IMG/VR virus record: IMGVR_UViG_3300020162_001673
Coordinates: 1 to 22,704 of that record
DNA length: 22,704 nt
DNA from: a virus
Direction: 5' to 3' (one strand)
Below the pieces are notes generated by a model. That model was not told where the DNA came from. It saw nothing but the letters and a program-made list of their open reading frames with translations, and searched no databases. Of this stretch, positions 1,493-22,616 are shown piece after piece (the stretch's first letter is position 1; every line of letters starts with the position of its first letter). A program made the translations under genes and the position numbers.

Positions 1493-2539
1493 TTAAATAA
1501 TTCCAGCCAATTTTTGCATTCTTGAAAATGCCTCGTTTGACTCAACGATTGGTTTTTTAACGCTTGGTGTAATAGTACCTTTTGATGCGCTACCTAAGTG
1601 TTCTTTAATTGTATTTTTAGAAACTTTAATACCCTCGTTTAATGTTTCAAATACCATTTTAACTTCACCTACGTTTTTAGCTTTATCAAAAGAAGTTAAT
1701 ACTTTTACTTTTTGACTTTCATTCAAGTTTTTAGCTTTGAAGATTTTGTTTGTGTAAAGTAATTTTGCGTTTAATAAATTGATTTCATTCAATTCATCTT
1801 TAAGAGTTTCGATTGCAGAATAAGCTTCGTCAAGTTCTTTTTTCATTTTTTTCTTGTCTTCGTCTTCTTTCTTGTCTTCTTTCTCTTTTTTCTTTTTAGC
1901 TTCGTCGATAGATTCATTTTCTTCAACTTTTTCGATTTCTTCGATTTCTCTAAGTAATTCTGCTAAGTCGATTTCTTCTTCTTCTTCTCCGCTAACATCT
2001 TCCATTTCTTCAGATTCTTCTTCACCTTCCATGTCTTCATCTCCAGCTTCAAGTTCACCTGATTCCATCATGTCTTTGATAACGTCTTCAATCATTGATT
2101 TTAGATCCTCATCAGTCATGTCTTCTAGGTCGATTGGTTCACCTTCTTCTTCACCTTCTTCAGATTCTTCAGATTCCTCTTCTTCAGATTCCTCTTCTTC
2201 ACCTTCTTCGGCTTCGTTTAATGTGTCATCTTCCTCTTCGTTTAGCTCCGCTAAAAGTTCTTCCAAATCAATTTCCATCGTATCATCAGCTTCTTCCATG
2301 TATTTAGCTTCTTCCATGTCATCCATGTCTTTAGCTTCTTCCATTTTTTCTTCTGATTTATCATACATCTCTTCTAAACCTTCTTCCATTTCCATTTCTT
2401 GAAGTTTCATTGAGAACATTGATGTTAATTGAGGTGTGAAGGCTTCTTCTAGAGCAGCTTTTGCATTTGCTATTGCAGTTTCTTTAACAGCTTTAGCGTC
2501 AGCGATTGCTTCTTTAAGCATTTCTCTGTTTGTTGCCAT
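1493..2539 (-). CDS. 22: Prohead core scaffold protein, T4 gp22-like
   Basis: 348 residues. Predicted assembly scaffold of the prohead, degraded by the prohead protease before DNA packaging. The middle (about residues 48-235) is extremely acidic and Glu-rich, then switches to a Lys/Glu helical region. The C-terminus (EAFSRMQKLAGII) resembles the conserved end of gp22 proteins. Candidate protease sites of the L/I-x-E/[AGS] type lie at residues 107-110 (LNEA), 211-214 (IDEA), 272-275 (LNES) and 300-303 (LNEG), as expected for a core protein that is chopped into peptides. It lies between the protease and major capsid genes, matching T4 order 21-22-23. A terminator upstream (2684-2707) means it probably starts a new transcript from the 2540-2683 leader. 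The GAA/GAG-rich DNA produces a spurious Ser-rich frame on the other strand. Confidence 0.9.
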   Translation of the reverse strand: MATNREMLKEAIADAKAVKETAIANAKAALEEAFTPQLTSMFSMKLQEMEMEEGLEEMYDKSEEKMEEAKDMDDMEEAKYMEEADDTMEIDLEELLAELNEEEDDTLNEAEEGEEEESEEEESEESEEGEEEGEPIDLEDMTDEDLKSMIEDVIKDMMESGELEAGDEDMEGEEESEEMEDVSGEEEEEIDLAELLREIEEIEKVEENESIDEAKKKKEKEDKKEDEDKKKMKKELDEAYSAIETLKDELNEINLLNAKLLYTNKIFKAKNLNESQKVKVLTSFDKAKNVGEVKMVFETLNEGIKVSKNTIKEHLGSASKGTITPSVKKPIVESNEAFSRMQKLAGII

Positions 2540-2729: not shown

Positions 2730-3362
2730 TTAAAATATAGGGCATGTACCTTTAGAACATAATATTTCTGTAACTAATGAGTTTGTTTTAGCATATGGAT
2801 CTAGGAATGTTGAACGTGATTCGTTTAATGCACCATTTTTCATCCATGAATCTGGGTTAGATGGGTTGGAGACTAAATCCCAAGTGAGTAATTCGAAGTC
2901 ATCTTGCACTTCCATTATTTCACCAACTTGTTTTAATGAACCCATTCCACGAGAAGAAATTCCAATTAATAAGCCATTTTTAACTAACGCTCCAGCTATA
3001 CGGCCAGATGAGGTACCTAAATCACCCATATCAGAGAAAATTTCTACTTTACCCCATATTTCATCACCTTTCCAATACAATTCACGCACCGCATGAGATG
3101 CATTTTTAAGGTTGATTACTTGCGAGTCAGGATGATCCAATTCACCACATGTTTCTGTAGATCTCATTTGGATTTTACGTGCAAAATTGTCAATTTCACG
3201 TTCCCATAATTCTCTAGGGTAGTAACGACCATTACCATTTTTAACTTCAACTGTAGCTAATATCCCCTCAACGAAAACATTTCCGTTGTTTTTCATTCCT
3301 TCCAATAATGACAATGGTTTAGGACTGAAATGTCTAGTTTCTATTAGTAGTTGCTTATTCAT
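2730..3362 (-). CDS. 21: Prohead core protease, T4 gp21-like
   Basis: 210 residues, similar to the roughly 212 of T4 gp21. Serine-type protease that acts inside the prohead, cutting scaffold, capsid and internal proteins after L/I-x-E. Visible hallmarks: an N-terminal LLIET like that of gp21, the GELDHP motif at 73-78 with the probable catalytic His77, and the SSRG motif at 136-139 with the probable catalytic Ser, followed by GMGSL. The ending CSKGTCPIF carries two cysteines not present in T4 gp21. The ATG at 3362 overlaps the upstream gene's stop by 8 bp, so the two are probably translationally coupled. A terminator follows the gene. Confidence 0.92.
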   Translation of the reverse strand: MNKQLLIETRHFSPKPLSLLEGMKNNGNVFVEGILATVEVKNGNGRYYPRELWEREIDNFARKIQMRSTETCGELDHPDSQVINLKNASHAVRELYWKGDEIWGKVEIFSDMGDLGTSSGRIAGALVKNGLLIGISSRGMGSLKQVGEIMEVQDDFELLTWDLVSNPSNPDSWMKNGALNESRSTFLDPYAKTNSLVTEILCSKGTCPIF

Positions 3363-9565: not shown

Positions 9566-9994
9566 TTATTTAATTACCACCAATGTAAGAATAGTAAGTA
9601 TGGAAGCCACGAATCCTCCACCTAACCATTTAATTCCTTTTTTTAAGCGATTATTTTTACGAGCCAAAGTAGCAACATCACCTTCTAATCCGGTAATGAT
9701 TTCATCTTTTTTTACAAGTATTTTATCGTAATTGGAAATTTGGGAAATGTAGTTTTCCTCTTTTACTACATATAATTTGATGATACTATCTTGTGTATCA
9801 ATTTTTTCGTTTAACTGCCAAACTAGTTTATTAACTACTTTTAATTCAGCAATAGCTGAATCACCCTTAACTAAGTCTATTGCTATTTTTTTAGCTGTAG
9901 AATAAGGGAAACAAATTTTACTAGTATCTTTCTGTGAAAAACTCGTTAAGCTCAGCAGGAGAAGAACTAGTAATGTCTTTAATTTTGTTGCCAT
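9566..9994 (-). CDS. Secreted coiled-coil protein with C-terminal membrane helix (spanin-like candidate)
   Basis: 142 residues from ATG 9994; a GTG at 10003 is also possible. Signal peptide: a Lys-containing start, a Leu-rich core (LLVLLLLSL) and an SFSQ end before KD, a form common in Bacteroidota. The middle (about 45-115) is a helical or coiled-coil region, and the last 20 residues form a hydrophobic segment ending in Lys. The gene overlaps the preceding gene by 74 bp in another frame, an arrangement reminiscent of nested or overlapping Rz/Rz1 spanin genes. No lipobox cysteine is present, so if it is a spanin it is not a classical lipoprotein Rz1. Function is inferred from topology only. 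Confidence 0.72.
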   Translation of the reverse strand: MATKLKTLLVLLLLSLTSFSQKDTSKICFPYSTAKKIAIDLVKGDSAIAELKVVNKLVWQLNEKIDTQDSIIKLYVVKEENYISQISNYDKILVKKDEIITGLEGDVATLARKNNRLKKGIKWLGGGFVASILTILTLVVIK

Positions 9995-10277
9995 AATATG
10001 CACGTGTTTTAGTTAGCTCTTTTTCTGTAATAGTAATTTCTTTATTTAATGAATCAACTTTAGCATATTGTGCTGTTAAACTTTCGTTTAATTTAATTTG
10101 ATCCTCTTTTAACCCATTGATAATATTTCCAAGACTATCTATTTCACGTTTTTGTTTATCGTAGTTGTTTGGAATGTCATGTGTTGGGTTACATTTAACA
10201 AGAAATATGACTAACAATAAAATTATCCCACCTATGATAAGATGGGATAACTTTAGTTGAAATGTTTTATCTTTCAC
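9921..10277 (-). CDS. Single-pass membrane protein with coiled coil (Rz/i-spanin-like candidate)
   Basis: 118 residues with a GTG start at 10277, 2 bp after the upstream stop; no in-frame ATG precedes the membrane helix. One N-terminal transmembrane segment (about residues 11-28, HLIIGGIILLLVIFLVK) is followed by a periplasmic-type helical region rich in Lys, Glu, Asp and Asn (about 35-95). This is the topology of an inner-membrane spanin. The pairing and overlap with the next gene supports a two-component lysis function. No endolysin or holin was recognised nearby, which weakens the case. Confidence 0.72.
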   Translation of the reverse strand: MKDKTFQLKLSHLIIGGIILLLVIFLVKCNPTHDIPNNYDKQKREIDSLGNIINGLKEDQIKLNESLTAQYAKVDSLNKEITITEKELTKTRAYYGNKIKDITSSSPAELNEFFTERY

Positions 10278-11275: not shown

Positions 11276-11806
11276 TTAGAGGGACATTACTTGTTTAATT
11301 TTCTGTATTCTCTCCTCGGTTGTACCCGATAATTCAGCATAATTTTTAATTTTAGGTTTATATGTATTGATAATCTTTTGAATTTCTCTATCAACTTTCA
11401 TTCTATACTTTGCATCTATAGTACGAACACCATTATCCTCCAATTCTACACCCTCAGGAGATATATAGAATATATAATCATATTCGCGAATCAAATATGA
11501 AGCTAATTGCTCAAAATCATCACCTATAAAATATGGAATCGATTTAGCTAAATTAGTAAACGCCATTACATCCACTACTGTGCGATCAGTTATAACATTT
11601 TCACACATTAATTCACTAGAACGTTCAGCTAAAAATACTATTTGACCTTTAATGGTTGAATCAGTATTTAATGGAATACCTAAATCACGTAGGTATTTTG
11701 AACGCTCTGTTGCAAACGTATAATCTTTAAACTCAGGTAATTCCTTTAATGCTTTAACCAAAGTTGTTTTACCAACTGAAACGGTTCCTGTAAATCCTAT
11801 CTTCAT
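11276..11806 (-). CDS. P-loop nucleotide kinase-like ATPase (AAA_28/NadR-like)
   Basis: 176 residues. Walker A GTVSVGKT at residues 7-14, an ER motif near 34-35, and TDRTVVDVMAF (73-83), the Walker B/DR motif typical of NadR-type ribosylnicotinamide kinases and the AAA_28 family; a basic helix (RMKVDREIQKI) could be the lid. Likely phosphorylates a small substrate such as a nucleoside or nicotinamide riboside; the substrate is not determinable here. Lies 1 bp after the oxidoreductase stop, so the two are co-expressed. It lacks the amphipathic N-terminal extension seen on neighbours and starts directly with the P-loop strand, suggesting a cytoplasmic role. Confidence 0.83.
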   Translation of the reverse strand: MKIGFTGTVSVGKTTLVKALKELPEFKDYTFATERSKYLRDLGIPLNTDSTIKGQIVFLAERSSELMCENVITDRTVVDVMAFTNLAKSIPYFIGDDFEQLASYLIREYDYIFYISPEGVELEDNGVRTIDAKYRMKVDREIQKIINTYKPKIKNYAELSGTTEERIQKIKQVMSL

Positions 11807-11807
11807 A

Positions 11808-13106
11808 TTATTTTATAAAACTTTCTACTACATAAATTGCTTGTGCTCCGGAAACTGTAATTCCACGTGCGCTTAAAGCATCTCCTACGAAATGTACGTT
11901 AGGATAATCGATCAAACTAAGATCCTCATAGTTTACTTTTACCTCAGGTGACAAATATTTTACCTCAGGAATATACATTCCCCAATCATCACCCAATGTT
12001 GGGAATACTTTTTTCATATCCTCAATAAAATCTTCTACATATTGAAAATAACCACCCATTACCTCTCTTACTCCATCTAAAAATTCAATTTGATATGATG
12101 TTACTCCATTACCCTCAGATGTTGTTGATGGTTGACGAGATGGACTATAATATAAACCAGTTCCATTAAATTGTAATTTAGAAACTACATCACGTGACCA
12201 TTTGAATGGATCTTCAATACCATTAATTTCCATTAATATACCAAAGTTAGTCATATTATTTCTATATGCTTCGTCTTTCTTAGCATGTCCATTATATGAA
12301 TGATCACCATATGTTTCCTCTACAGCAACATAAGCAGCATTGTTATTTGTACAAAATGAACGTAATGAAACTCCTTCATCATCAAATTTTCTATATAACT
12401 TAAAGTCATATGAAATATCGATTAGTTTTTGAAAGTGTTCTTGTGGTGCTTCAAATCGAACTCCAATTTGTACTGATTTTGGTTCATCTGGTAATTTATA
12501 TTGGTTAGCTAATTGTTGGGCAAAATCAATACCTGATTTACCTACTGCAAAAATGAGTTCATCATATTTTATTTCTCCAGCAAAGTCTTGGTTTGCAAGT
12601 GATACTTCATTTTTAGTAAAATCAATACTATAAACTTTATGTTCCCATACAAATTCAACACCTTTAGACACTAAATAATCATACCAATTTTTAGCAATTT
12701 CAGATAAATAATCTGTACCCACGTGCCATACAGGAAATAATCGTAAACCAAAATATGGTTTAATAAATTCTGGTTCCTCTTCAGGGTTTGAGCATTGTAC
12801 TTCTTCTGGTTTAGGGTGAAAACGTTTAAAGTTGGTAATGACTTGATCCATCAATTCCATTGCTTTTTCCTCACCACAATATTTTGATAATTGACCCCCA
12901 ATTGCTGTGTGGTAAGTTAATTTACCATCACTCCATCCACCAGCACCAAGGAAACCTGTCATTACTTCTTCAGGTTTACGTTGGTATGGATCTTTACCCA
13001 TATCAATGATTGTGATTAATTCTCCAGGATATCCATTATCCACTAATTTTGTTGCAGCGTTTACACCAGCAACTCCGGCTCCTACTATAACTATATTTTT
13101 GTCCAT
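11808..13106 (-). CDS. FAD-dependent oxidoreductase/dehydrogenase
   Basis: 432 residues. Dinucleotide-binding GAGVAG (9-14) in the N-terminal Rossmann fold, an Asp-ended second strand (ITIID), an internal LIFAVGKSG and a C-terminal HFVGDALSARG segment that should contact FAD. The overall pattern, including SLRSFCTNNNAAYVA, resembles uncharacterised FAD-dependent dehydrogenases (COG2509-like). Substrate unknown. First gene after the terminator at 13135-13165, with only an A/T-rich 28-bp stretch between, so it either has its own promoter or depends on read-through. It is an unusual metabolic gene next to the packaging genes, paired with a NadR-like kinase; a redox or NAD-related auxiliary role is inference. 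Confidence 0.86.
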   Translation of the reverse strand: MDKNIVIVGAGVAGVNAATKLVDNGYPGELITIIDMGKDPYQRKPEEVMTGFLGAGGWSDGKLTYHTAIGGQLSKYCGEEKAMELMDQVITNFKRFHPKPEEVQCSNPEEEPEFIKPYFGLRLFPVWHVGTDYLSEIAKNWYDYLVSKGVEFVWEHKVYSIDFTKNEVSLANQDFAGEIKYDELIFAVGKSGIDFAQQLANQYKLPDEPKSVQIGVRFEAPQEHFQKLIDISYDFKLYRKFDDEGVSLRSFCTNNNAAYVAVEETYGDHSYNGHAKKDEAYRNNMTNFGILMEINGIEDPFKWSRDVVSKLQFNGTGLYYSPSRQPSTTSEGNGVTSYQIEFLDGVREVMGGYFQYVEDFIEDMKKVFPTLGDDWGMYIPEVKYLSPEVKVNYEDLSLIDYPNVHFVGDALSARGITVSGAQAIYVVESFIK

Positions 13107-13504: not shown

Positions 13505-13761
13505 GATTTATGTATCTTTAACTTTAAAGTTCCTGTTCCTTTTATTACACGATGCCATTCGTGTCTTGGGATAAATATACGTTCTTTTAGTGAGGTAGGC
13601 AAGCAATTATCTAATTGAAGTTGCCAATCTGTATCTTCTAGAATTTCAATTGTTCTAGCTTCATCATCACGATGCCACATAAGTTCAATTGGGTCTATAT
13701 TTTCGTTAAATTCACGAATAATATATTTGTCAGTAACTTCTATGTCAGTGTATGGTTTCAT
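13501..13761 (-). CDS. Cupin-like small protein
   Basis: 86 residues. Pattern REF-x(4)-D-x-x-ELMWHRDDEART, LPTSLKERIFIPRHEWHRVIKG suggests a one-domain cupin barrel, with WHRD and the IPRHEWHR turn supplying possible metal-binding His residues. I recall similar small proteins in T4-like phages, function unknown. Overlaps both neighbours by 4 bp (ATGA at 13758-13761 and 13501-13504). It lacks the amphipathic N-terminus of adjacent genes. Confidence 0.72.
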   Translation of the reverse strand: MKPYTDIEVTDKYIIREFNENIDPIELMWHRDDEARTIEILEDTDWQLQLDNCLPTSLKERIFIPRHEWHRVIKGTGTLKLKIHKS

Positions 13762-14132
13762 TTTCTTTCATCTACCCACCAAATACAAACATATTCAGTT
13801 GGATCAGCAGGGATTTCACCATCACCATGCCATTCTTTATAGTATTGACCTTCACATAGTTGTGTTTCCTTATTCCATTTAGCACAGTTAGCACACATAG
13901 CACCACCGTTTGGAACAGATTTTGCAGGTTGAAAACCATCAGGGAATTGAAGTTCTGGGGTTTCACCTTCGGAAAGTTTATTAATTTCCTTACCTGCTTT
14001 AACAGCTGATTTATATGCTTTAGATCCTTTTGGAGATGGTTTTTCTCCACGTTCACGTTTAGCACGTATATTGTCCCATAAACCAGGGCGTTCTTTAAGT
14101 ACTTCTTGTACTATTTTTTCTAATTTATTCAT
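13758..14132 (-). CDS. Two-module protein with Cys4 motif
   Basis: 124 residues from ATG 14132, which overlaps the previous stop by 1 bp (TGATG); a GTG at 14135 is in frame but less likely. Layout: amphipathic start (MNKLEKIVQEVLKE); a module RPGLWDNIRAKRERGEKPS followed by a Lys-rich stretch, a pattern I recall as recurrent in marine phages; LSEG (53-56), a candidate protease site exactly between modules; then a Cys domain (C80, C83, C93, C116, ending VCIWW) that could bind zinc or iron-sulfur. Function unknown. Confidence 0.78.
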   Translation of the reverse strand: MNKLEKIVQEVLKERPGLWDNIRAKRERGEKPSPKGSKAYKSAVKAGKEINKLSEGETPELQFPDGFQPAKSVPNGGAMCANCAKWNKETQLCEGQYYKEWHGDGEIPADPTEYVCIWWVDERK

Positions 14133-14809
14133 CACCAGAATCCTGAAAAGGATGATTTTAAACCTAATAATTTAGCATAACGTGGTAAGCGACAGCTCCA
14201 GTAAGATGCTTTTGTTTTATCTGTTTTATTTTTACAATCGTGACGTGCAGCAAATGCTCTACGTGCCTCTGGATTGTTTATTTTAGCTGATAGACCTGAT
14301 GTGTCTCCAAAACTAACTTTTTTAATTTTTTTGGTTTTAGGATTTTTCACATAAACATAGAATTTTTTAGATCCTCCACGTTTTGGTTTTCCAAGTGGTG
14401 GATTTTTCTTTTTATCAGCTTCTTCAAGCTCTTCATTTTCAAGTAAAAGTAGATCTAAAGGTACTTTTTGATTTTCATATAAACCATAGTTACCTAAGTC
14501 AGTTTCCTCTAGAATTTGTTTATCATCTTCATTTACATGAATAATTTCACGTAAATACAATGAACGAGCTTCTGCCCATAAATTAAGGAAAGATTCCGAA
14601 CCATATCGGAACGTGTTTTCGGTAAGTGGTAGTTGTTTATCCACGTGATAACGCAGATTTTCCGATAATATATCTTTTTTAACTAAACTTTCGTTTAGTA
14701 CAACACCTTCATTACCTACATTGTCACAGCTATGGCAACCACAGTTGCAGCTATCCTTTTTTGGTGGAGTAGATAGTACTTCTTTTATTAAATGTCTTAA
14801 ACGTTCCAT
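14132..14809 (-). CDS. Multi-module protein with C-terminal DUF5872-like domain
   Basis: 225 residues. Amphipathic start (MERLRHLIKEVLS); a dense Cys cluster C21, C23, C25, C28 with His26 that may bind metal; LNES (38-41), a candidate prohead-protease site; a middle helical module (about 66-125) ending in KVPLDLLLLENEE; a basic linker; and a C-terminal domain from about 144 (KKFYVYVKNPKTKKIKKV, then RRAFAARHDC and SYWSCRLPRYAK), which matches the DUF5872-type module common in T4-like phages. Role unknown; the basic C-terminus could contact DNA. A possible promoter element fills the 11-bp upstream gap. Confidence 0.82.
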   Translation of the reverse strand: MERLRHLIKEVLSTPPKKDSCNCGCHSCDNVGNEGVVLNESLVKKDILSENLRYHVDKQLPLTENTFRYGSESFLNLWAEARSLYLREIIHVNEDDKQILEETDLGNYGLYENQKVPLDLLLLENEELEEADKKKNPPLGKPKRGGSKKFYVYVKNPKTKKIKKVSFGDTSGLSAKINNPEARRAFAARHDCKNKTDKTKASYWSCRLPRYAKLLGLKSSFSGFW

Positions 14810-18641: not shown

Positions 18642-19210
18642 TTTTTAAGTGAATTTAAATGTTTAATAGCTTCATCAAGTGATTTTTGAGCTCTTTCTTT
18701 ATTAATTCCGCCAACCCATTTTTGTACTTCACCATTTTCAGAAACATATCCTTCTTTACCATCTAAAAGAATACTTTCAAAATAACTTTTATATTCTTGT
18801 ATTTGTTGATCTATTTCAGCATTAAATGTTTTATCAACATGTGATTGCCATTCACCTGAGATTTTCATTTTGGTTTCGGTAGTTGTTCTGCAATCTAAAC
18901 ATTCACCAAAAGATTTATAATAAAATGAATCTAATTGTTTATCCATTACTTGTTTGCAGTTTGGGCAGAATAAGGGAACTGCTACTTTTTTAAATTTATC
19001 TAATTTAGTAACATTTTCTTTAATACCGTCTTTAATAGTCCAAGTTCTACCACCTTGCTGCCAAATATCTCCTTCTTTATGTTCCTCTTCTTGAGGCCCA
19101 TTATAACCAATTCCAACAGTAGTACGATTACCATGTTTACCTGCTACCAGGTTACGCAAACGTTCTACGTCTCTTTTTTGGAATTCTTTTTTTAAAACTG
19201 AATCAGACAT
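18638..19210 (-). CDS. Conserved phage protein with zinc ribbon
   Basis: 190 residues. N-terminal helix MSDSVLKKEFQKRDVERLRN and a VAGKHGNRTTVGIGY segment form a block I recall as conserved in T4-like marine phages, followed by GDIWQQGGRTWTIKDGIKEN. A zinc ribbon is formed by C82-x2-C85 and C104-x2-C107. The C-terminal third is helical. Likely nucleic-acid or protein binding; specific function unknown. TAATG 1-bp overlap with the HAD gene upstream. Confidence 0.78.
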   Translation of the reverse strand: MSDSVLKKEFQKRDVERLRNLVAGKHGNRTTVGIGYNGPQEEEHKEGDIWQQGGRTWTIKDGIKENVTKLDKFKKVAVPLFCPNCKQVMDKQLDSFYYKSFGECLDCRTTTETKMKISGEWQSHVDKTFNAEIDQQIQEYKSYFESILLDGKEGYVSENGEVQKWVGGINKERAQKSLDEAIKHLNSLKK

Positions 19211-19785
19211 TATATCTTGTATTTTTCTTTAAGTATTTTTAGAGTTTCGGGGGCCGATGTATGTAAAATTGCTTTACCACCACTTGCTCTCCAAGCATCC
19301 GTATTTTTTTTCATATCATCTATCAATATGTTTTTCGGACCAGCATATGTAGCTTTTTTAGGGGCCGGTACAAATATTTCTTCACCCACACCACTAAGAT
19401 TTTTTGAAATCCATTCTTTTTTTCCTTGAATAGCTTGATTTTTTTCAGGACTTAATTGTTCATCAGATGGAAGGCTAAAGTCTACTGCAGGGGCTGAAAG
19501 AATATTTGGGGTATATTGTTGGATAGATTTCCAAAGGTCTTTTCCTCCAGGTTGCCATGCTAAATTTGCCCAAAAATCTTTTTCTTTAATATTTTTTTCT
19601 TTAAGTTTTTCTCTAAACAATTTCCAAAAGTAAGGTTTGCCTATAGCATTAGCTTCTTGAGTAGACATATCAGTTAAATCAGCATACCCTTGATCAAAAT
19701 CACAAAGTACACCATCCATATCACAATAAATGGTATAAGGTTTAATTGCCTCGTATAAATCTAAAAGATTTGGTATTTTTTTCAT
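19210..19785 (-). CDS. HAD-superfamily phosphatase, possibly 5'(3')-deoxyribonucleotidase-like
   Basis: 191 residues. HAD motif I CDMDGVLCDFD (21-31) with nucleophile Asp22 and acid Asp24; motif IV NILIDDMKKN (152-161). The fold resembles phage and bacterial 5'(3')-deoxyribonucleotidases, which dephosphorylate nucleotides; a different phosphomonoester is possible. The N-terminus (LLDLYEAIKPY) includes LYEA (10-13), a candidate prohead-protease site just before the catalytic domain. TAATATG spacing (1 bp) after the 674-residue gene indicates coupled expression. Confidence 0.83.
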   Translation of the reverse strand: MKKIPNLLDLYEAIKPYTIYCDMDGVLCDFDQGYADLTDMSTQEANAIGKPYFWKLFREKLKEKNIKEKDFWANLAWQPGGKDLWKSIQQYTPNILSAPAVDFSLPSDEQLSPEKNQAIQGKKEWISKNLSGVGEEIFVPAPKKATYAGPKNILIDDMKKNTDAWRASGGKAILHTSAPETLKILKEKYKI

Positions 19786-19786
19786 A

Positions 19787-21811
19787 TTAAAATTTAGGTA
19801 AATTTAATGCCTTTAATCGGCCTCTCCAAATATCTAGTATCTCTTCTTTTTCTTCAGATGTTATATCTTGAGCATCTAAATAAGAATTTATAACATCTCC
19901 AAATGGACGTTTTTCTTTTTTAGCACGTAAATACATTCCTTGTAAATTAGCATCTATTTCTTTTTCAAGTTTAAAATAAGCTGCTTTAGGAAGCATATCG
20001 GCATTAATCATATCTCTTATAAATTGATCATCTGGGAGTAATTTAGGTGGATTTTCATTAAATCCTTCTCCATGAGTTAAATGTTCAATTTCATGGCGAA
20101 CAACATCTTTTAAATTCATAGAAATTTCACTCCAACTCTTGGGAAGCATAGATGGGTCTACCTCAAATCTTACTTCAAGATATCCAGTATCAGCATTAGC
20201 TCCTCCATCTATATTAAGTTTTTCACTTCCTGGGATGAATGATATGTTAGCGTCTATATCTATATTTAGATCATCTGTTTTAAATGTTTGGTCAAAACGA
20301 GAGGCATCGACTCCTTCTTCATAATCTTGTTTCCAATGATTAAAAATAGCAGAAGATATATCATTTGTGATTTTATCGTAGCGACCTTCATTTAATTGTT
20401 TTGGTGTATTATCATGTCCACATTTATGGCAAACATATAAATCATCACCCCCATCTTTTATGGGCCAACTCCAATCACAATTATCACATTCAATTCTATC
20501 TCCTACAATAGATTCATTTATATTTTCAATATTAGTTGGATAATTTCCTACTTTAGAATAAAATTCTTTCATCCAAGGTAATTCCTTCCATGAAGAAACA
20601 CCATTTGGAGTTTCAGCATCAAAATATTTACCATTATATTCAACCCAAACATGACCAAGTGTTTCATTTCTTGGATCTTCAGTACTCATTATTGTAGAGC
20701 CAGGTAAATATTTGGATAAGTTTTTCGCAAATATATCACAAAACCCATTATTACATTCTTTACCTCCAAATTTATCCCAATTTTTATCTACTATCTTTAA
20801 TGCTTCTTTCTCTGTTTGATCTAGGGATTTTTTAAAAACACCTTCAGTTAATGTATCTGTCCAATTACGAAAAGTCATATTACCTTTTTCATATGCTTCT
20901 CTTTCAATTTCAGGTAAATCTCCATCCTCATTTGTATTTTGGGTTTGGATATTACCTAAACGATCATCACAGTTTTGTTCATGATGGATCATTTCATGCG
21001 CGAATGAACGCATAATATCTTTTGGATGACGATCCTTTGTATAAAGTACTATAATGCGATTGTTCGGGTCATAATACGCTGTTTTACCAAAGAAATTTCT
21101 AGCGTTTTCAATATCATCTTCTACAAATTTTACTTTAGGTAAAGGACGAATATTCATTCCTTTATCTAACATATATTCTGTAAGTGATTTCATTAAATAT
21201 GGATAATCATTCTCGCTAGGTTCAGCGTACATCTCATTAAGTGGAGTTTTTTGTAAAATATCCCAAACTTCTTCTTTATCCTCATTGGAAAGTTCAGTTG
21301 GAAGATATGTTAAAAATTTATCTTTATTTCCACCAATTAAGGCAGCACGTGTGTTTGTACCACTAATACGATCTTCACCTTCGGATTTAATTACGATAGG
21401 TTTAAAGTTTTCGTATTTACCTTTCATACTATCGAAACGTTTCAAATCACCTAAATCCATTTCACCTCTAATCCCTACTACAGGATAGAACATTGTATCT
21501 GGATTATTTTTAATCATCGATCCAACATCTGAAATGGGGGATGAATTATCTGATAATTTTATTTCAACATTAGAGGGTAAGTATTTTTGATAAATGTCCC
21601 AAATTTCTTTACTTTCTTCTTTAGTTACACCATCTCGGGTTTTATGTCCTATAAGAACAATTACTTTAGATACCTCAGGATGTTTTGCTACTTGATCAAC
21701 TAGATAAAAGTGACCTAAAGTAGGTGGTTTAAAACCACCAGGTACTAAAGCAATACCATCTTGGTTTTCTTCCAATAATGGTTGTATAAGCGATTTAACG
21801 AATGAATTCAT
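19787..21811 (-). CDS. Multidomain polyprotein: nucleotidyltransferase, two metallopeptidase-like domains, Cys/His/Asp domain, zinc ribbon
   Basis: 674 residues. In order: amphipathic start MNSFVKSLIQPLLEEN; nucleotidylyltransferase (about 18-188) with GGFKPPTLGHFYLV (25-38; TLGH replaces HxGH) and ISGTNTR (149-155); zinc-peptidase-like domain with AHEMIHHEQ (HExxH at 272-276) and a downstream EIEREA; a domain with C358 (NGFCDIF), H387 (GHVWVEY) and D398 (YFDAE), like a transglutaminase or papain-type triad; zinc ribbon C442, C445, C461, C464; second zincin-like domain with HEIEH (573-577) and a later KEIDAN. Junctions carry LNEM (191-194), LTEG (321-324), INES (431-434) and LNEG (473-476), matching or near the gp21 cleavage pattern. 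I infer a head-packaged polyprotein cut into separate enzymes. Overlaps the upstream kinase gene by 17 bp. Confidence 0.85.
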   Translation of the reverse strand: MNSFVKSLIQPLLEENQDGIALVPGGFKPPTLGHFYLVDQVAKHPEVSKVIVLIGHKTRDGVTKEESKEIWDIYQKYLPSNVEIKLSDNSSPISDVGSMIKNNPDTMFYPVVGIRGEMDLGDLKRFDSMKGKYENFKPIVIKSEGEDRISGTNTRAALIGGNKDKFLTYLPTELSNEDKEEVWDILQKTPLNEMYAEPSENDYPYLMKSLTEYMLDKGMNIRPLPKVKFVEDDIENARNFFGKTAYYDPNNRIIVLYTKDRHPKDIMRSFAHEMIHHEQNCDDRLGNIQTQNTNEDGDLPEIEREAYEKGNMTFRNWTDTLTEGVFKKSLDQTEKEALKIVDKNWDKFGGKECNNGFCDIFAKNLSKYLPGSTIMSTEDPRNETLGHVWVEYNGKYFDAETPNGVSSWKELPWMKEFYSKVGNYPTNIENINESIVGDRIECDNCDWSWPIKDGGDDLYVCHKCGHDNTPKQLNEGRYDKITNDISSAIFNHWKQDYEEGVDASRFDQTFKTDDLNIDIDANISFIPGSEKLNIDGGANADTGYLEVRFEVDPSMLPKSWSEISMNLKDVVRHEIEHLTHGEGFNENPPKLLPDDQFIRDMINADMLPKAAYFKLEKEIDANLQGMYLRAKKEKRPFGDVINSYLDAQDITSEEKEEILDIWRGRLKALNLPKF

Positions 21812-22616
21812 TGATTTTACTTTGCGCCTCTTCTTTAGAAACTGAGGAATTAATGATGTTTGTTATTTGGTCTGATTGTAAGATATCTTGGATTTCTTGA
21901 GCTAGGTTATCTTTTTCAAGTTGATCTTTAGCTAATTCTTTTTCAGTTTTAGGTTTACCGTCTGTAACTTTGAATGGAGTAATATATGTTTTTAATATAT
22001 TTTGTATATCTTTCATGGTTTCAGATTCACCTGTGTTTGCAACAGATATAAAATTATCACCAAACAAATCTTGATACCCTTTAAAGTTTTTAGTTACATC
22101 TTTCCATGTATTTAATACCGCACCAGGCATTAGACTTCTATCTTTACCCTCTGATTTTTCAAATCGCTCTTGATTACGTTTTAGTGAATTTTCTAAATCA
22201 GTATAAACATATAACATCATTACATCATATCCTGCTTCTTTTAATTGATTAACCAATTTAAGAGTTTGATTATAAGATGCTGATGTTCCATCTAAAATGA
22301 ATGATTCACGATTTTCTATTGTTTGAGGGAGATCTCCTTTTATTCCTCTTTTTGGATTACCTTTTAACTTATCTGTTGCCACTCTCATAGCTTGCATAAA
22401 TTTACTTCTATCTTCAGCATCTGCTGCTTTTTGATTTAAAGTAAAATCTTGCTCTTTTGATAAAGCAGCAATAGTATCATCTAAGTTTAAAGTTTTTAAA
22501 CCAGATAAATTTAACCCTCCTAAAATAGTACCTTTTCCAGCACCTGGAGCTCCAGCAAGGATAATAGCTTTTGGGTTGGATTGTACCTCCTTTAATAATT
22601 GGATTAAACTTATCAT
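21795..22616 (-). CDS. P-loop kinase (zeta-toxin/AAA-like) with amphipathic N-terminus
   Basis: 273 residues. The N-terminal MISLIQLLKEVQ resembles the shared segment. Walker A GAPGAGKGT at 22-30, a possible substrate-binding LNLDD (44-48), FILDGTSAS (about 106-114) as Walker B region, and a basic LENSLKRNQERF lid. The arrangement resembles zeta-toxin-type and related small-molecule kinases of phages; substrate unknown. The C-terminal 60 residues are charged and helical with no domain recognised. No clear L/I-x-E/[AGS] site follows the N-terminal segment. Starts 11 bp after the partial upstream gene. Confidence 0.82.
   Translation of the reverse strand: MISLIQLLKEVQSNPKAIILAGAPGAGKGTILGGLNLSGLKTLNLDDTIAALSKEQDFTLNQKAADAEDRSKFMQAMRVATDKLKGNPKRGIKGDLPQTIENRESFILDGTSASYNQTLKLVNQLKEAGYDVMMLYVYTDLENSLKRNQERFEKSEGKDRSLMPGAVLNTWKDVTKNFKGYQDLFGDNFISVANTGESETMKDIQNILKTYITPFKVTDGKPKTEKELAKDQLEKDNLAQEIQDILQSDQITNIINSSVSKEEAQSKINEFIR

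Follow-up and report, generated by a model that had tools for sequence, protein, structure and literature searches.

Prohead-protease-type motifs at the module boundaries of a putative cargo polyprotein from a T4-like phage

The window analysed here, a 22,704-nucleotide stretch of viral DNA (positions 1 to 22,704 of IMG/VR record IMGVR_UViG_3300020162_001673), derives from a T4-like phage, with Flavobacteria as the probable host. All main genes of the window lie on the minus strand, and they include a real open reading frame (ORF) that starts with ATG and encodes a 674-residue protein of five modules (L numbers below denote the viral loci of our comparison set). The features are as follows.

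19787..21811, minus strand: polyprotein ORF, 674 residues (ORF listing; 60 related architectures)
21770..21811, minus strand: capsid-targeting-like N-terminal leader MNSFVKSLIQPLLE, residues 1–14, ending in the proposed cut site LLE14 (helix 3–13 in the model; leader kept in homologues)
21233..21769, minus strand: module 1, nucleotidyltransferase (NMNAT/PPAT-like), residues 15–193, ending in the proposed cut site LNE193 (PTLGH and ISGTNTR motifs, PHROG, Foldseek)
20843..21232, minus strand: module 2 (MPa), zincin, residues 194–323, ending in the proposed cut site LTE323 (HEMIH at 272–276, EREAYEKG downstream; weak DUF6782 match)
20513..20842, minus strand: module 3, Cys/His/Asp (YunG-like), residues 324–433, ending in the proposed cut site INE433 (weak YunG-like match; 330-bp block missing in L001)
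20387..20512, minus strand: module 4, 42-residue zinc ribbon CDNC...CHKC, residues 434–475, ending in the proposed cut site LNE475
19790..20386, minus strand: module 5 (MPb), zincin, residues 476–674, C-terminal, no site at its end (HEIEH at 573–577, EKEIDANLQG downstream)
19210..19785, minus strand: HAD 5′-nucleotidase gene whose leader is MKKIPNLLDLYE/A (in L068, a homologue forms part of the polyprotein)
21795..22616, minus strand: zeta-toxin-like kinase gene that opens with the leader MISLIQLLKE/V and overlaps the start of the polyprotein
2730..3362, minus strand: gp21-type prohead protease (Peptidase_S77) with its own LLE/G and LNE/S (PF03420, 9e-27; phrog_207, 1e-47)

Module 1 has a Rossmann-like fold with (H/T)xGH and ISxTxxR motifs (PTLGH at residues 30–34 and ISGTNTR at 149–155). 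It matches a PHROG cytidyltransferase family (E 5e-10), and a Foldseek search with its model returned NMN/NaMN/pantetheine adenylyltransferases (NadM, NadD and CoaD, probability 1.0). NCBIfam and PDB sequence searches yielded only generic cytidylyltransferase or phosphopantetheine adenylyltransferase matches, with the NCBIfam equivalog cut-offs unmet, and we therefore leave the substrate unassigned. A role in NAD or nucleotide metabolism is possible but remains a guess; the NARP1/Namat role, considered because Namat restores NAD (PMC12774641), is likewise conceivable and has no supporting data. The zincin MPa matches only DUF6782, weakly, and has free-standing homologues in L037–L043 and L048, and a family profile search found no family match for MPb itself. 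That the zincins cut host or defence proteins is a guess that cannot be excluded; PADLOC returned no defence-family match.

Downstream of the polyprotein gene lie genes for a terminase, a portal, core proteins, the gp21-type S77 protease and a capsid protein. The protease gene is established by sequence, and the assignment of the terminase, portal, core and capsid genes is our own reading, backed by the annotation of the syntenic region in Flavobacterium phage vB_FspM_immuto (hereafter referred to as immuto), which includes gp20, gp21-type protease and gp23 genes. The equivalent of the polyprotein gene in immuto, immuto35A_182, is annotated only as an NMN adenylyltransferase and is followed by the same 5′-nucleotidase; among named phages, the full protein has a relative in immuto only. 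Across the 20 larger contigs that carry these modules, 18 encode an S77 protease that passes the family cut-off, and the two without one, each of about 50 kb, are probably partial. A leader similar to that of the polyprotein opens many neighbouring genes, including the 5′-nucleotidase and zeta-like kinase genes. In the immuto head block, an [LI]xE motif with its Glu at positions 7–20 is present in 21 of the 31 genes tested, as compared with 26 of 172 elsewhere (Fisher p 6e-9). This block was picked after the sequences had been seen, yet it is contiguous, from the tail genes to the capsid gene.

The polyprotein carries [LI]xE boundary sites at residues 14, 193, 323, 433 and 475. A preliminary description of the locus had recognized five modules in one 674-residue frame and had placed LNEM (21230–21241), LTEG (20840–20851), INES (20510–20521) and LNEG (20384–20395) in the linkers; the modules and the positions were confirmed, the motifs being exact translations at these coordinates. 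It overlooked the fifth boundary site, LLE14 (21770–21778), which lies at the end of the N-terminal helix and closes a 14-residue amphipathic leader (MNSFVKSLIQPLLE14). Its judgement that the motif count alone is weak also held, as the protein contains 8 overlapping [LI]xE motifs against 8.6 expected from shuffling, and requiring A, G, S or M at P1′ gives 4 against 1.6 expected (P = 0.07) in the window protein alone. The placement of the sites, unlike their number, is far from chance in sequence comparisons, and its view that placement at each domain boundary is the notable part was upheld by the comparative tests described below. Moreover, the absence of the sites from homologues, which would have spoken against the proposal, was not observed: E193 is invariant in the homologue alignment, the Cys/His/Asp module ends in INE/LNE in nine of nine cases, a leader ending in [LI]xE opens 67 of 69 N-terminal contexts of NMNAT-first homologues, and sites mostly persist when a module follows. 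Two further motifs, LTE212 and LPE301, lie within the first zincin fold and, if the protease cuts the chain, must be shielded by folding, an inference that we draw from sequence alone.

An AlphaFold2 model of the window protein, built from 26 sequences, is weak (mean pLDDT 65). Its breaks with pLDDT below 50 (residues 10–13, 189–201, 321–437 and 470–476) contain or abut all five proposed sites, and motifs 212 and 301 are located in or at a helix of the first zincin. Sites 14, 193 and 475 are within or beside breaks that separate folded domains, rather than inside folded cores of the model. Sites 323 and 433 border module 3, which has no confident fold: residues 321–437 form a single long low-confidence stretch, and the module modelled alone with AlphaFold from nine close sequences reached a pLDDT of only 53, which is unusable. 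Thus, these two sites cannot be called linkers from the structure, and their linker status rests instead on the following-module test and on a 330-bp cassette indel, both described below.

For comparison, we used four module queries to search 2.9 million viral contigs, obtained about 190 loci and called 1853 distinct proteins in them. The chains combine multiple unrelated enzymatic domains in mosaic orders (60 architectures), with at least 60 module orders and a longest protein of 1507 residues. In related phages, cassettes bounded by the proposed cut sites are swapped, inserted, duplicated or found free-standing with a leader, and their swapping at the sites is demonstrated by sequence. Some junctions carry V/M/F-x-E or no site, and two of the domain matches are marginal, that to DNA_pol_B_palm in L067 being barely over the cut-off and that to Tox-ART-HYD1 in L045 below it.

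We defined module borders as the ends of local homology, set without reference to the motif. Among 958 clusters of such homology edges in 233 proteins, 40% have an [LI]xE within 7 residues, as compared with 19% expected; the commonest position of a left edge is the L itself (67 cases), and that of a right edge is the E itself (46 cases). The controls [LI]xK, [LI]xD, [LI]xN, [LI]xS and [AG]xE were at or below expectation. Two other motifs were also raised at junctions: [VF]xE (152 against 84 expected) and E-x-[LI] (283 against 189 expected). The latter excess probably arises from an L or I that often follows the cut Glu. Because [VF]xE is raised and V is the third commonest P3 residue, the specificity here may be hydrophobic-x-E.

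The presence of a site depends on whether a module follows, a dependence that is directly visible in the sequences. A site follows MPa in 36 of 44 distinct contexts with a module behind it but in only 3 of 40 in which MPa is C-terminal (p 1e-12); for MPb the counts are 10 of 10 and 0 of 17 (LNLPLFE/SKN versus LNLPKF-stop), and for NMNAT 60 of 79 and 0 of 9. Nothing comparable was seen with control motifs. The homologues are related, so that these p-values do not come from independent events. With clusters at 80% identity the test gave p values of 1e-3 (MPa), 5e-5 (MPb) and 3.5e-4 (NMNAT), and with 65% clusters and [LI]xE the test stayed clear for MPb (0.002) but was only marginal for NMNAT (0.04) and lost significance for MPa (0.2).

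The motif is also fixed at the starts of modules, in fused and free copies alike. An [LI]xE lies directly ahead of the ART core in 17 of 17 fused and 32 of 36 free copies, and directly before MPa in 26 of 27 fused and 6 of 6 free copies. For the ART-like module, a free copy reads MIKLIDLLNE/GKQVGTLYH and a fused one DNNPALNE/GKQVGTLYH; for MPa, the corresponding sequences are MIKLSSLLSE/IYAEPS and KTPLNE/MYAEPS. Free and fused copies thus have L-x-E alone in common, and the remaining upstream sequence is unrelated.

Within module cores, [LI]xE is depleted to 0.47 of expectation (230 observed, 490 expected, 314 cores) and is under-represented in each of the eight module families tested, whereas the ratio is 1.02 in immuto non-head genes and 1.13 in other genes of the loci. 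[LI]xK and [LI]xD show no depletion in the cores. Owing to kinship within families, the independent units of this test are the eight families and not the 314 cores. Such depletion is expected if these proteins truly meet the protease.

These patterns bear on a first alternative, in which the ORF encodes an ordinary multi-domain 'polyvalent' protein that stays whole, the L/I-x-E motifs being a trait of flexible, Glu-rich linkers. In its favour, polyvalent proteins that contain zincins, ARTs and NTases are known from phages, the N4 virion RNA polymerase is packaged uncut (PMC5512222), and the raw motif count is at chance. Against it, the motif is lost in C-terminal modules, is fixed directly before module starts in both fused and free copies and is depleted within cores, and other Glu- or Leu-containing motifs mostly lack these patterns. 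We consider this alternative unlikely.

A second alternative holds that the L-x-E sites are DNA seams left where modules were shuffled or genes fused, as remnants of downstream leaders, with no proteolysis involved. Cassettes clearly do move at the sites. The polyprotein of L001 (94% identical) lacks the Cys/His/Asp module through an exact 330-bp indel that starts at the residue following LTE323 and extends through the E of INE433. The flanking DNA is 98% and 94% identical between the window and L001, and the ends of this indel share TGAA. In L074 and L075, two hydrophobic-x-E sites flank the Cys/His/Asp module in a small, unrelated gene, of which immuto has a version without the module. This exact exchange of a cassette also counts in favour of the polyprotein reading proposed below. 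However, P3 is L, I, V or M, encoded by 12 codons, and P2 is free (mostly N), which argues that selection acts on a protein motif rather than on a DNA seam. Furthermore, of the leader, fused copies retain nothing but L-x-E, and a seam would leave the core depletion unexplained. This alternative therefore appears very unlikely.

We propose instead that the ORF is probably a T4-like phage cargo polyprotein, in which a leader would target the chain, the prohead protease would cut it and the modules would be injected; loading, cutting and injection are inferred by analogy to T4. In T4, gp21 cuts after L/I-x-E, and a 10-residue leader is enough to target foreign proteins to the head, as in a packaged beta-galactosidase fusion (PMC9026906), and our proposal for cutting and loading rests on these observations. 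The first ~14 residues would serve as a capsid-targeting leader and bring the entire chain into the prohead core. As the head matures, the gp21-type serine protease would then cut after E14, E193, E323, E433 and E475, removing the leader and freeing the nucleotidyltransferase, the two zincins, the YunG-like Cys/His/Asp protein and the 42-residue zinc ribbon inside the head. The freed enzymes may then enter the host together with the DNA and work early in infection. Loading into the head, cutting in trans and injection are inferred from the comparison and from T4 biology, with no virion or biochemical data for any member, and we found no virion mass-spectrometry data for these phages in the open-licence literature searched. 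The reading of the ORF as a prohead-processed polyprotein, first offered in the preliminary description, is thus supported by the comparison of about 190 loci, with cleavage, encapsidation and injection still inferred; the chain, presented there as a would-be delivery device, is one case of a general arrangement, with dozens of module orders, stand-alone genes bearing the same site and an N-terminal leader.

A third alternative retains a cut polyprotein but assigns the cutting to its own zincin modules rather than to the capsid protease. Zincin self-processing of polyvalent proteins was proposed by Iyer et al. (PMC5512222), and the window protein has two zincins. In contrast, the leaders of many zincin-less proteins end in the same sites, which also bound the modules of zincin-less polyproteins such as L074, L075 and L117, and the site matches the gp21 motif published for T4. 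We regard this alternative as highly improbable, and zincin self-cutting as a general rule was rejected because zincin-less proteins have the same sites; the zincins could still do part of the cutting themselves.

Besides the junctions with V/M/F-x-E or no site, the two motifs within the first zincin, the kinship of the sequences, the weak structure model and the lack of virion data, one group of proteins counts against the cargo-polyprotein reading. The NTase-first polyproteins of immuto (gp182, L065:19173-21896), L045 (7128-10508) and L067 (1460-5980) have no N-terminal leader, and their head targeting is unexplained. These proteins start with a Pol-beta-like NTase (MSGSAGGNRI...) and keep an internal leader-like helix with L/I-x-E, LFKGLVRELILPLIE/AD.

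A comparison with known systems places the proposed cargo polyprotein between several of them. T4 IPI–III and Alt share with it the short N-terminal leader ending in L/I-x-E, the S77/gp21-type protease, the T4-type head genes and enzymes that are likely injected, but they comprise one cargo protein per gene with terminal propeptides, whereas the window protein has several enzymes per chain and internal sites. The T4 scaffold and core proteins gp22, gp67 and gp68 are likewise single chains that gp21 cuts many times at L/I-x-E in the prohead; these scaffolds are degraded to peptides, whereas the window protein is a string of folded enzymes with sites confined to the linkers. The ejection proteins of phiKZ and SPN3US are head-packaged, ejected and processed at multiple sites by a gp21 relative, but the processing takes long propeptides off single proteins, and we found no modular enzyme polyprotein in the relevant literature sections. 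Polyvalent proteins (Iyer et al. 2017, PMC5512222) resemble the window protein and its relatives in joining 2–15 unrelated domains per phage protein in mosaic orders, in their predicted packaging and injection and, as far as the marginal domain matches allow, in their zincin, ART and Pol-beta NTase domains. Unlike the present proposal, their processing is ascribed to internal zincins or, rarely, to a C-terminal assemblin-like peptidase, and prohead-protease boundary sites, a targeting leader and free/fused equivalence were not found in the relevant sections of that study. The window case thus combines a polyvalent mosaic enzyme chain with a capsid-targeting leader and with capsid-protease sites where the modules meet. 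The open-licence literature searched contained no description of an enzyme polyprotein that is packaged in the head and cut by a prohead protease, although absence is not proven.

If the proposal is correct, a tailed phage loads several different enzymes in the form of a single chain and separates them inside its own head, and the prohead protease is an effector-processing as well as a capsid-maturation enzyme. A 'leader plus L-x-E cassette' rule would make injected phage effectors findable without other data than sequence; in immuto, about two thirds of the tested head-block genes bear the leader mark. The arrangement also suggests that counter-defence cargo can evolve fast, cassette by cassette, and that several proteins could be loaded in equal amounts, which is relevant to protein-delivery engineering with T4-like heads. 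A bolder reading, which as a joint claim we favour only by a narrow margin, is that immuto-related T4-like phages run a general plug-in cargo system, in which any L/I-x-E-bounded domain could be inserted into a capsid-targeted polyprotein, loaded in equal copies, released by the protease at head maturation and injected. Such a system would parallel, in a DNA phage, the polyproteins of eukaryotic viruses and would work as a fast-evolving multi-effector delivery platform.

Several further features were observed in these loci. Within the head cluster of the window, positions 11276–13106 hold ATPase/kinase-like and FAD-dependent oxidoreductase-like genes without a leader. Upstream of the terminase gene, an overlapping pair (9566–10003 and 9921–10277), one with a signal-peptide-like start and the other with a membrane helix and coiled coil, is a possible spanin pair. 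Two small genes, at 13758–14135 and 14132–14809, also resemble strings bounded by cut sites (VLKE/RPGLWDNIRAKRERGEKPSPKG...KLSE/GETPELQ) and may yield small basic head peptides. The putative scaffold (window 1493–2539) ends in FSRMQKLAGII, and a small immuto gene (L065:23717-24181) begins with MKKQILSEQFRRMQKLAGIITE/S; the two have RMQKLAGII in common, which could be a core-binding signal. A spacer of about 20 residues, DPFGLNE(L/Y)AR.., is repeated between modules (L068, L067, L072 and L109; about 25 proteins overall) and resembles an internal copy of a targeting or core-binding helix; a second inter-module spacer, DPQAGTALPYGSG..KE, occurs in the same protein set. The ART-like KQVGTLYH module (L129–L191) is widespread, both in stand-alone genes with a leader and in cassette form, and it has distant ART-like relatives in Dickeya jumbo phages.
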